This document shows positions 39,484 through 42,805 of a DNA stretch of 64,000 bases, in pieces. The position numbers and the translations under genes were made by a program. Position 1 is the stretch's first letter, and each line of letters starts with the position of its first letter. Below the pieces are notes generated by a model, which was not told the origin of the DNA, searched no databases, and saw only the letters and a list, made by a program, of their open reading frames with translations. The stretch spans positions 271,903 through 335,902 of the forward strand of contig JANZZV010000003.1 of NCBI GenBank assembly GCA_026419195.1, written 5' to 3'. This stretch comes from Fervidobacterium sp. (GTDB lineage: Bacteria > Thermotogota > Thermotogae > Thermotogales > Fervidobacteriaceae).

Positions 39484-40731
39484 ATGAAAAACGTAATCGG
39501 ACTAATCCTTGCTGGAGGGCAAGGTACACGCTTAGGTGTGTTAACCGAAAAAATTCCAAAACCTGCTGTACAATTTGGTGGAAAATACAGAATTATAGAT
39601 TTTACACTGAGTAATTGTGTAAACTCCGGTATATACAGAATAGGTGTATTAACACAATACAGACCTCATCTTTTAAACAAACATATAGGGATTGGCAAAC
39701 CTTGGGATCTTGATAGGAAAGGTGGAGGTGTAACCATTCTCCAACCTTATTCGACGTTGACAGAAAGTGTATGGTACAAAGGAACTGCTGATGCTGTATA
39801 TCAAAACATAGAATTTATTGAGGAGTACGATCCTGAGTACATAGTTGTCCTGTCAGGTGATCATATCTACTCCATGGATTACAGTGAATTTGTTTATTAT
39901 CATATTTCAAAAGGTGCCCTTGCAACTATTGCGTGCATGGAAGTACCTCTTAGCGAAGCACACAGGTTTGGTATAATGATAACAGACATAGATAACAAGA
40001 TAATAGACTTTCAAGAAAAACCAAGAGAACCTAAATCGAACCTTGCATCACTTGGTATATACGTTTTTACCTGGGAATTTATAAAACAAATGTTAATTGA
40101 TGATGCGAGAGATGAAAAAAGTGATCATGACTTTGGTAAAAATGTAATACCAAAAATTCTCTCAACGGAAAAAGTTTACGCTTATCCATTTGAAGGCTAC
40201 TGGCAAGATGTTGGAACAATACAATCTTACTGGGAAACAAATCTTGAACTTGTTAGACCTATACCCCCGTTTAATCTACACGATCCTAACTGGCGCATTT
40301 ACACACGTTCTGAGGAAATGCAACCAGCATATGTGTCAGAAAGTGGTGAGGTTAGGAATTCTATAATAAGTGAAGGATGTGAAATATACGGATATGTCGA
40401 AAATAGCGTTATATCTCAGGGTGTTTTAATTGGTGAAGGTAGTGTGATTAAAAATAGTGTCATTATGACGAAAGTAGAAATCGGTAGCAATGTTATAATC
40501 GAAGACTCAATAATAGCCGAGAATACTATAATAAAAGACGGTTGTAAGATAGGAATCGGAAAATTCGCAGAAAGTAAGTACGATAAAAAAGTGTACAACT
40601 CTGACATTACAGTTATAGGTATGGACAGTATTTTAGAAGAAAACTGCTCCTTAGGAAAAAATGTTGTTGTAGGGAATGATAGAATCATACCAAAGGGTAC
40701 ACAAATAGAAAGTGGAGGATTCTTCATGTGA
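39484..40731 (+). CDS. glgC: Glucose-1-phosphate adenylyltransferase, catalytic subunit GlgC
   Basis: A 415-aa enzyme forming ADP-glucose from ATP and glucose 1-phosphate for glycogen synthesis. It has the intact loop [21 protein letters not shown] (split), [11 protein letters not shown], the sugar-binding FQEKPREPK and a left-handed beta-helix tail with repeats such as [21 protein letters not shown] (split). Forms a heteromer with GlgD just upstream. Ribosome site AGGGGGGC. Confidence 0.97.
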
Positions 40732-40785
40732 GCCTTTTAAATACCAGCTATCAAGCATCAATCAAATGTTTGGGGAGGAGTCGTT

Positions 40786-41772
40786 CTGGATCTTTATTTT
40801 ATAAAAGTTAGGGCACGGAGTAAGGGTACAGCAGAGGATATAGTAGGATACTTCTTTGGGAAAACCAACAGTGCTCCCGATTATGATTTTATTGTTGTGC
40901 CTATTCGATACGCGAACATGCTTGACGAAATAACGCTTGATGAAAAATTAAATGATTTTAAAGAAAAGATCGAGAAAGTAAGAAAACAAATAAAAGAATT
41001 ACCTGGAACATACGACATATCTCTCGCTTTTATATCTTATCTTAACAACATAATGAATCGGAGAGGAAAAATTCCCCTTGGTATTGAATTTTCCACAGCT
41101 ATAAAAGAAAATGACGAAGAAGTTTTAAGAGTTATTATATCAGATCTTTTAGAAGAATGGAGTCCAAAAATGGATGTTAACATAAAATTCGAAGGCATGT
41201 TACTTGAGGAATACTCCGCACTCACATTTTTAGAAATACAAGAAGATTTTACAGACGAAAACGTTGTTAAAGTGTACTCTCGACCAGACGTAGTCGATTT
41301 AATAGAAGTGTTCCCAGTAATAGATCCGATAAATGGCTCAACAGTCATGCAATTTGATATCGGTGACAAAATGCCAGTAGTTATATTAAATCCTGGAAAG
41401 TATGAAAAACAATTAAGAGAAAAACTACCGAAGTTTGATCTACAAAAAATTTCTATTGAGGGGACTATAGTAAGCAAAGAACTCATAAAAGTCAGAGGAG
41501 GAAGCTTATATTTAGTCAAATTGGAACTGTTTGAAGGAATACTTGCAAAATCACTTGTAAGCCCTGCTTTGAAAATTTTAAGTGATGAATCTTATTTTTT
41601 AAAAAAACAAAAGCAAGTTTTCGAAGGTAAAGAGTATATAAAAGAAGAAATACCAAGACAAATAAGGGTAGAGGTACCACCTACAACAGGTTCTGAATTG
41701 CTTATCTCATTCATGACCACACTGCTTATAACCGGTGCTTTATTAATAATAATTTATTTATTTACAAAATAA
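40786..41772 (+). CDS. Tail-anchored protein of unknown function, probable CTG start
   Basis: A protein of about 328 aa if begun at CTG 40786; I do not recognise the family. The frame is open from 40741 and has no ATG, GTG or TTG until GTG 40897, which lacks a ribosome site. CTG 40786 lies 5-7 bases after the strong GGGGAGGAG (40772-40780). The protein is mostly soluble, with a Lys/Glu-rich helix (about residues 50-70), a likely beta-rich middle (RPDVVDLIEVFPVIDP) and one C-terminal transmembrane helix (last 25 residues, ending YLFTK). It follows glgC by 54 bases and precedes the IspF fusion. Confidence 0.75.
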   Translation: MDLYFIKVRARSKGTAEDIVGYFFGKTNSAPDYDFIVVPIRYANMLDEITLDEKLNDFKEKIEKVRKQIKELPGTYDISLAFISYLNNIMNRRGKIPLGIEFSTAIKENDEEVLRVIISDLLEEWSPKMDVNIKFEGMLLEEYSALTFLEIQEDFTDENVVKVYSRPDVVDLIEVFPVIDPINGSTVMQFDIGDKMPVVILNPGKYEKQLREKLPKFDLQKISIEGTIVSKELIKVRGGSLYLVKLELFEGILAKSLVSPALKILSDESYFLKKQKQVFEGKEYIKEEIPRQIRVEVPPTTGSELLISFMTTLLITGALLIIIYLFTK

Positions 41773-41824
41773 TCTATCCATTCTATCCATTAGTTCGATG
41801 AATGCAAAATTTTGAGGTGGTAAT

Positions 41825-42805
41825 TTGGAAATAACAAAAATCAATCAATCAAATATTGAAGAAATTTCAAAGCTAATATACGAAGATAAAAAAGAATTTT
41901 TCGACGAATTGTTCGGAAGTAAAGCAATAAAATATATATTGGATGCTCTTTCAAAAGACATCCCACCATTTGTAAAACAAAATTCGTTAGTACTCAGGGG
42001 TGCGGATAAGATTAAGGGGGTTTTGTTATACTCTGACAAAGCAGGATTTAGGCATGGGTATCAAAAATGGTTTGGGATACTTGGATTTAAAATATTCCCA
42101 GTAGGTTCAAAGATGATATACATAATTGAAAGGATACTGATGGATTTTTCAATCAATGACTTGTACATAGTTTCTCTTACTGGTGAAATGAAAGAATATC
42201 TGCTGTACAAATTCATCAAAGAAAACAGATATAAAAGGATCATTGTTGATACCTTCGATTACGAATTCTTCCAAAAATTTGGTTTTCAAGAAGAAAAACC
42301 TGTCCATCAGAAGATGAAAAGACTTTCGAAACTCTCTGATTATAAAACATTTACTGGTATAGGTTGGGACACTCACCCACTTGTGGAAAACAGGCAACTT
42401 GTGTTGGGCGGGGTAGAAATTGAATCAAATCTTGGTCTATTTGGCCATTCTGATGCAGATGTTTTATGTCACGCAATCATAGATAGTATCGTTGGTATAA
42501 CACATAAAAAAGATATTGGAACAATATTTCCGGAAAATGAATTAAATAAAGGTAGAAGAAGCCTTGATATGTTGTGTGAAATAGTAAAGTATATTAGCTC
42601 TACAGGATTCTTTGCTTCTTCCGTAGATTGTGTTATAATCTCTCCGGTAAGACTTAAAAACTACAGAGAAGAAATCATCAAAAGTTTAGAAGAGGTATTA
42701 AACTGCCCAGTCTCCGTGAAATTCAAAAGTGGGAACGATGTATACCCAGAATCCCAAATGAAAGGTATTACAGCCATATGTGTCAGTAATATTGATAAGA
42801 TATAA
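41825..42805 (+). CDS. ispF: GNAT-like domain fused to a divergent IspF (MECDP synthase) domain
   Basis: A 326-aa protein in two parts. Residues 1-170 resemble a GNAT acetyltransferase in outline (VLRGADKIKGVLLYSD, then FEFFQKFGFQEE-like ending). Residues 172-326 align with IspF: GIGWDTHPLV keeps the metal Asp and His, GHSDADVLCHAIIDSIVG keeps the second metal His, and DIGTIFPE is present. However, the normal DTD after FP is ENE, and the C-terminal TTTE-x9-GRGEG motif is replaced by KSGN...SQMKG, which removes one expected metal-ligand Glu. IspF normally closes the cyclodiphosphate in the MEP pathway; activity here is uncertain. TTG start after GAGGTGG. Confidence 0.8.
   Translation: MEITKINQSNIEEISKLIYEDKKEFFDELFGSKAIKYILDALSKDIPPFVKQNSLVLRGADKIKGVLLYSDKAGFRHGYQKWFGILGFKIFPVGSKMIYIIERILMDFSINDLYIVSLTGEMKEYLLYKFIKENRYKRIIVDTFDYEFFQKFGFQEEKPVHQKMKRLSKLSDYKTFTGIGWDTHPLVENRQLVLGGVEIESNLGLFGHSDADVLCHAIIDSIVGITHKKDIGTIFPENELNKGRRSLDMLCEIVKYISSTGFFASSVDCVIISPVRLKNYREEIIKSLEEVLNCPVSVKFKSGNDVYPESQMKGITAICVSNIDKI

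Follow-up and report, generated by a model that had tools for sequence, protein, structure and literature searches.

The window, a 64,000-nucleotide stretch of a Fervidobacterium sp. genome, carries on its forward strand a gene in which a GNAT-like coding region precedes an IspF (YgbB) domain. The features discussed below are as follows; E. coli numbering is used for IspF residues where a comparison is made.

39484-42805, + strand: neighbourhood of a glgC-like gene, a DUF4899 gene and the ispF fusion (tblastn synteny)
40897-41772, + strand: DUF4899 gene (Pfam E 1.6e-80), with a hydrophobic stretch at the C-terminus
41814-41820 (approximate), + strand: GAGGTGG, a putative Shine-Dalgarno-like sequence 5' of the TTG start (from the sequence)
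41825-42805, + strand: ispF fusion gene, 326 aa, TTG start (ORF call, Pfam; architecture the same in 20/20 family genomes)
41825-42340, + strand: predicted degenerate GNAT domain, N-terminal, residues 1-172 (hhalign, AF2, Foldseek)
42179-42184, + strand: T119/G120, site of the missing ~10-residue acetyl-CoA P-loop segment (merged alignment, motif count)
42353-42790, + strand: IspF (YgbB) domain, residues 177-322 (PF02542, TIGR00151)
42368-42376, + strand: Zn ligands D182 and H184 (E. coli D8 and H10), invariant in 64/64 Thermotogota sequences
42470-42472, + strand: third Zn ligand, H216 (E. coli H42, in VLCHA), invariant in the alignment
42725-42736, + strand: K301-S302-G303-N304 in place of T132-T133-T134-E135, second-metal/diphosphate site (alignment)
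42743-42748, + strand: Y307-P308 in place of G138-F139, trimer cavity mouth (20/20 fusions; cavity role: PMC2151065)
42788-42790, + strand: N322 in place of L153, cavity floor (Asn/Asp in 20/20 fusions)

The match of the IspF domain to PF02542 spans the whole domain (E 8.3e-38; 130.6 bits against a cut-off of 26.7). Its score against the NCBIfam ispF equivalog TIGR00151 (110 bits) does not reach the cut-off of 116.45, so we file the protein as a divergent IspF-domain protein and, on score, not as an equivalog; three further fused members fall below this cut-off too, and an unfused relative (L003) passes it at 156 bits. Residues 1-172 match no family in Pfam or NCBIfam. Neither database gives an IspD cytidylyltransferase match in the N-terminal part, so the protein is not an IspDF enzyme. 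Chance, a frameshift or an assembly error behind the ORF was excluded, since every one of the 20 family genomes shows the same ORF with the same architecture and residues; a normal motif recoverable by frameshift correction, an outcome raised with the original prediction, is thus not supported.

A whole-genome search found one IspF copy in the window's genome, which is 97.7% complete. The second, canonical ispF that the original prediction suggested looking for is absent from this genome, and the fusion is the only copy. Indeed, each of the 20 genomes of the Fervidobacterium/Thermosipho family (five genera) has exactly one IspF, in a frame of ~330-360 aa, and the 20 fusions can be aligned from end to end. 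The other two Thermotogales families have IspF without the GNAT-derived N-terminal domain (N-domain). A glgC-like gene lies 5' of the fusion throughout the family genomes, with frr and uppS 3' of it in Fervidobacterium-type genera; the DUF4899 gene adjoins the fusion in several genera and is missing at that position in genus g4. Since all 20 fusions align fully and the glgC-like gene is always upstream, the ancestor of the family most likely already carried the fusion. Scanning 84,980 species genomes for the N-domain pattern gave matches only in Fervidobacterium, Thermosipho and one Thermotogota MAG, and none on plasmids; the pattern is degenerate, and such scans may miss distant relatives. 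In a literature search of mainly open-access papers, we found no report on a Thermotogota IspF or a GNAT-IspF fusion, and no assay or structure for any Thermotogota IspF.

The GNAT-like outline first ascribed to the ~170 N-terminal residues is borne out by both profile homology and structure modelling. A profile of 20 N-domains weakly matched two ORFs that are GNAT acetyltransferases by Pfam, and a search with one of these gathered further Thermotogales GNATs, including one (L131) from the window's own genome. The N-domain HMM aligns collinearly and over nearly the full length with many of these proteins (best E 4.6e-6), and hhalign aligned the N-domain with the Thermotogales GNAT profile over 154 columns (Prob 96.9, E 2e-10; Prob 98.0 in global mode). 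The 19 rows of the GNAT profile include one unrelated ORF picked by length (L129, 391 aa), which was excluded from the merged alignment and P-loop motif count described below. Because the E-values come from a single comparison, with relatives gathered by a related search, we treat them as supportive rather than independent. Of five AF2 models of the full-length protein, only two were confident; because IspF matches dominated the Foldseek results for the full-length protein (TM to target about 0.9), a separate model was made of the N-domain. The model of the N-domain alone (pLDDT 85.9, pTM 0.83) has the beta-alpha order of a GNAT, and the PDB entries that Foldseek listed for it share the GNAT fold, with a best E of 4.5e-6 and TMq reaching 0.67; the pseudo-acetyltransferase domain of O-GlcNAcase (3zj0, 6r45) is among them. 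Judged by profiles and model together, residues 1-172 are a true GNAT descendant.

This descendant appears to have lost the means to bind acetyl-CoA in the usual way. In the merged alignment, the P-loop stretch (VDKNYRGMGY in paralogues, for example) is missing from all 20 fusions, and the beta5-alpha4 segment containing Asn/Ala is likewise deleted in 20/20. The motif [QR]xxGx[GA], corresponding to the consensus Gln/Arg-x-x-Gly-x-Gly/Ala that serves in pyrophosphate binding (PMC4964394), occurs in 18/18 GNAT relatives and 0/20 fusions, and we therefore do not file the fusion as an acetyltransferase. Loss of the acetyl-CoA loop predicts that the N-domain cannot act as a normal acetyltransferase, and the proposal of an acetyltransferase-like partner is, in the catalytic sense, unsupported. 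Stand-alone Thermotogales GNATs (L131 of the window's genome, L113 and L114) share collinear, near full-length homology with the N-domain; they are separate genes that keep an RxxGxG P-loop, whereas neither is true of the fusions. The N-domain is under strong purifying selection. Its pairwise dN/dS is about 0.04-0.18, comparable to that of the IspF half, for pairs with estimable dS; many pairs are close to or past dS saturation. About 29 N-domain positions are invariant across the five genera, including the charged or aromatic residues R76, Y79, W82, K96, D112 and R166. Given the low dN/dS, the N-domain is most likely in use.

The IspF domain combines an intact zinc site with a rewritten second-metal site. 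The Zn ligands Asp8, His10 and His42 are kept in 20/20 fusions, and H34, S35, D46, D56 and G58 are invariant in the family; the Zn ligands, His34-Ser35, Asp56 and a Ser/Thr at 133 are features that the window protein has in common with the IspF/YgbB family, along with the fold. Conservation of the metal Asp and His of GIGWDTH and of the His in HSDADV had been noted correctly, but the latter (H34 = H208) is not a metal ligand, the third Zn ligand being H42 (H216). The changes of FPDTD to FPENE, with E237 at the position of D63, and of TTTE...GRGEG to KSGN...SQMKG are as originally described: A131-T132-T133-T134-E135 aligns with F300-K301-S302-G303-N304, and the alignment runs without an indel from there up to the GRGEG block. 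Two length changes outside this block were missed in the first reading, namely the loss of one residue at A100 of the cytidine loop, found in 20/20 fusions, and a shortened loop before VSVKFK.

In published IspF structures, Thr133 contacts the alpha-phosphate, Thr132 can contact the beta-phosphate and Glu135 is the ligand of the second metal (PMC2151065). Residue 135 was reported to be strictly Asp/Glu over 450 sequences (PMC2151065), and to be Glu in 81% and Asp in 18% of 854 sequences (PMC3927217). Residue 133 is Ser or Thr in all 20 fusions, keeping a hydroxyl for the alpha-phosphate, whereas the acidic residue at 135 is absent, with Asn in 20/20. In an alignment of 64 Thermotogota IspFs, K132 is combined with N135 in 60/60 members of families f1, f2 and f3 (Thermotogales), f9, f10 and f11, and T132 and E135 are kept in 4/4 sequences from the deep families f6-f8. 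Set against the published Asp/Glu rule, this marks a lineage-wide departure in the Thermotogota. Most carriers are unfused, N135 being found in 40/40 sampled relatives as well as in the fusions, and the unfused IspFs of Thermotogaceae and other Thermotogota have the same K-[ST]-[GAS]-N motif. The fusion as the cause of the motif was accordingly ruled out. The alignment of Thermotogales homologues, a comparison suggested at the outset, thus separates the rewritten motif from the fusion, two traits that had been presented as one joined feature, and indicates that the motif is the older of the two. Lys132 is not unique to Thermotogota; PDB entry 6nmo carries K132 with E135, so only Asn135 is unusual. 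The Lys/Ser/Asn set, together with Zn, may dispense with Mg2+ or hold Mg2+ in another way. As a separate observation, the ribose-contacting D56 of E. coli is replaced by Asn in 8/8 f9 IspFs (L097-L104) and by Ser or Asn in 6/6 f10 IspFs (L105-L110), and is conserved elsewhere; f9 IspFs also lack about four residues around 139-142.

A second set of changes concerns the central cavity of the trimer. In other IspFs this cavity binds IPP, GPP and FPP and is lined or guarded by Phe7, Arg142, Phe139 and the main-chain amide of Phe139 (PMC2151065), and its floor is a ring that includes Leu155 of B. cenocepacia IspF (PMC3927217), equivalent to E. coli Leu153 by a numbering offset of +2. All 20 fusions have V9T, G138Y and F139P, and just one keeps Arg142. 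Residue 153 is Asn or Asp in 20/20 fusions and Gln or Glu in 2/2 f11 sequences; in the unfused IspFs with the K/N motif it is Leu (37/38), and Gly-Phe is often kept at 138-139. A Pro at 139 is unable to donate a main-chain amide hydrogen bond. These substitutions suggest that the isoprenoid site of the cavity has been lost, and that the pseudo-GNAT at the N-terminal end may replace it as a control or assembly element; control through the cavity is itself described as unproven in one of the papers just cited.

The two f11 IspFs (L111:631-1422, + strand; L112:439-1290, - strand) form the sister group of the fused clade (support 94/84) and have N-terminal extensions of their own, ~115-125 aa long, with GTG starts preceded by Shine-Dalgarno-like sequences. 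At their ends the extensions show a helix-strand-'GF' pattern that recalls the C-terminal half of a GNAT, and they might hint at a wider origin of the fusion; the homology is not significant, with an hhalign Prob of 1.5 against the GNAT-derived N-domain.

The genomic context points to a conventional role for the enzyme. Genes for ispG, ispH and ispE are present in 20/20 family genomes, and ispD and dxr in 18/18 of those with ≥90% completeness, the IspD of the window's genome being a separate gene elsewhere in that genome; HMG-CoA reductase was found in 0/20. With a sole IspF, the five other MEP genes searched for present and no HMG-CoA reductase, the fusion must almost certainly supply MEcPP. 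The original prediction offered either a retuned MEP-pathway enzyme or a repurposed one, and the gene content favours the former: the fusion protein is almost certainly a working MEcPP cyclase.

We propose, and consider it probable, that this sole-copy working IspF bears a non-catalytic pseudo-GNAT module together with a Lys/Ser/Asn diphosphate site and a rewritten cavity. The C-terminal domain would most likely build the usual IspF trimer and cyclise CDP-methylerythritol 2-phosphate at its intact Asp/His/His zinc site, with the Lys/Ser/Asn set taking the diphosphate in place of a Mg2+ held by Glu135, as it would in unfused IspFs across most Thermotogota. The GNAT-fold domain, lacking the acetyl-CoA loop and maintained by selection, would sit at the N-terminal end of the trimer whose isoprenoid cavity is rewritten in the fused clade. 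Here it probably serves assembly or regulation, most likely holding trimers in a larger assembly or sensing a ligand. A stronger version, which we regard as doubtful, is that Thermotogota IspFs form a Zn-only, one-metal class in which Lys132/Asn135 substitute for the Mg2+ held by Glu135 and that, in Fervidobacterium/Thermosipho, a CoA-dead GNAT has also taken over allosteric or assembly control from a cavity lost through F139P, G138Y, R142X and L153N.

Other readings differ mainly in the role they give to the N-domain. It might be a mere appendage for thermostability or folding, with no ligand or partner, in keeping with its confinement to one thermophilic family and its lack of a recognised ligand-site signature. 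The other Thermotogales families, which count thermophiles such as Thermotoga among them, use IspF without an N-domain, and the invariant charged and aromatic residues listed above suggest a specific role; we therefore think the appendage reading unlikely, though not negligible. Considerably less probable is a bifunctional protein joining an active acetyltransferase to IspF. The GNAT fold and ancestry would fit, and an atypical P-loop does not always abolish GNAT activity (MtAAC(2')-Ic and PseH; PMC4964394), but in the fusions the P-loop and beta5-alpha4 segments are deleted rather than just substituted, and no member has a significant Pfam GNAT match. That the N-domain is left over from a read-through fusion and is now decaying seems very improbable: P-loop loss is compatible with decay, yet decay predicts relaxed selection and truncated N-domains, neither of which was found in the 20 genomes, where dN/dS is far under 1 and the ~29 invariant positions persist.

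For the IspF domain, the alternative is that it has been repurposed, catalysing some other reaction and having given up MEcPP synthesis. Divergence of the active-site and cavity residues and the score under the equivalog cut-off are what repurposing might produce. Against this, no second ispF accompanies the fusion in any of the 20 genomes, which encode the downstream IspG and IspH steps and have no HMG-CoA reductase; the Zn site and substrate residues of the fusion are intact, and unfused IspFs from relatives that use the MEP pathway have the swapped motif too, so we give repurposing little credence.

The nearest architectural precedent for the proposed cyclase with a pseudo-GNAT module is IspDF of Campylobacter and Helicobacter (1w55, 8xhu), in which an N-terminal alpha/beta domain likewise precedes IspF in one chain; there the partner is a catalytic IspD, whereas in Fervidobacterium it is the GNAT descendant. 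Pseudo-GNATs inside larger proteins are known from the central domain of Eis (PMC4964394) and the HAT-like domain of O-GlcNAcase (3zj0/6r45), both of GNAT fold and described as inactive; their host enzymes differ from IspF, and the likeness noted is one of fold. A pseudo-GNAT fixed across a family on an essential enzyme, with intact GNAT relatives persisting in the same genomes, offers a clean case of a catalytic domain becoming a structural or regulatory module. As a target for antibacterials and antimalarials IspF is well established, and a lineage without the acidic second-metal ligand, a trait common to several Thermotogota families, provides natural material for testing the need for the second IspF metal.

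Several MEP genes showed unusual features in passing. The sole ispF of genome G085 (C7:407989-408445) is split over three frames, by frameshifts or sequencing errors. Genome G016, from the same genus as the window, has two dxr and two ispG genes in two linked pairs (C1:731391-734969 and C1:1342386-1346008), and its relatives differ in this respect. In the window's genome, the open frame that contains ispH (G000:C1:76021-76815) runs to ~887 aa and is a probable IspH fusion; ispH frames are ~710-880 aa in genera g1-g3, compared with ~270-330 aa in most relatives.
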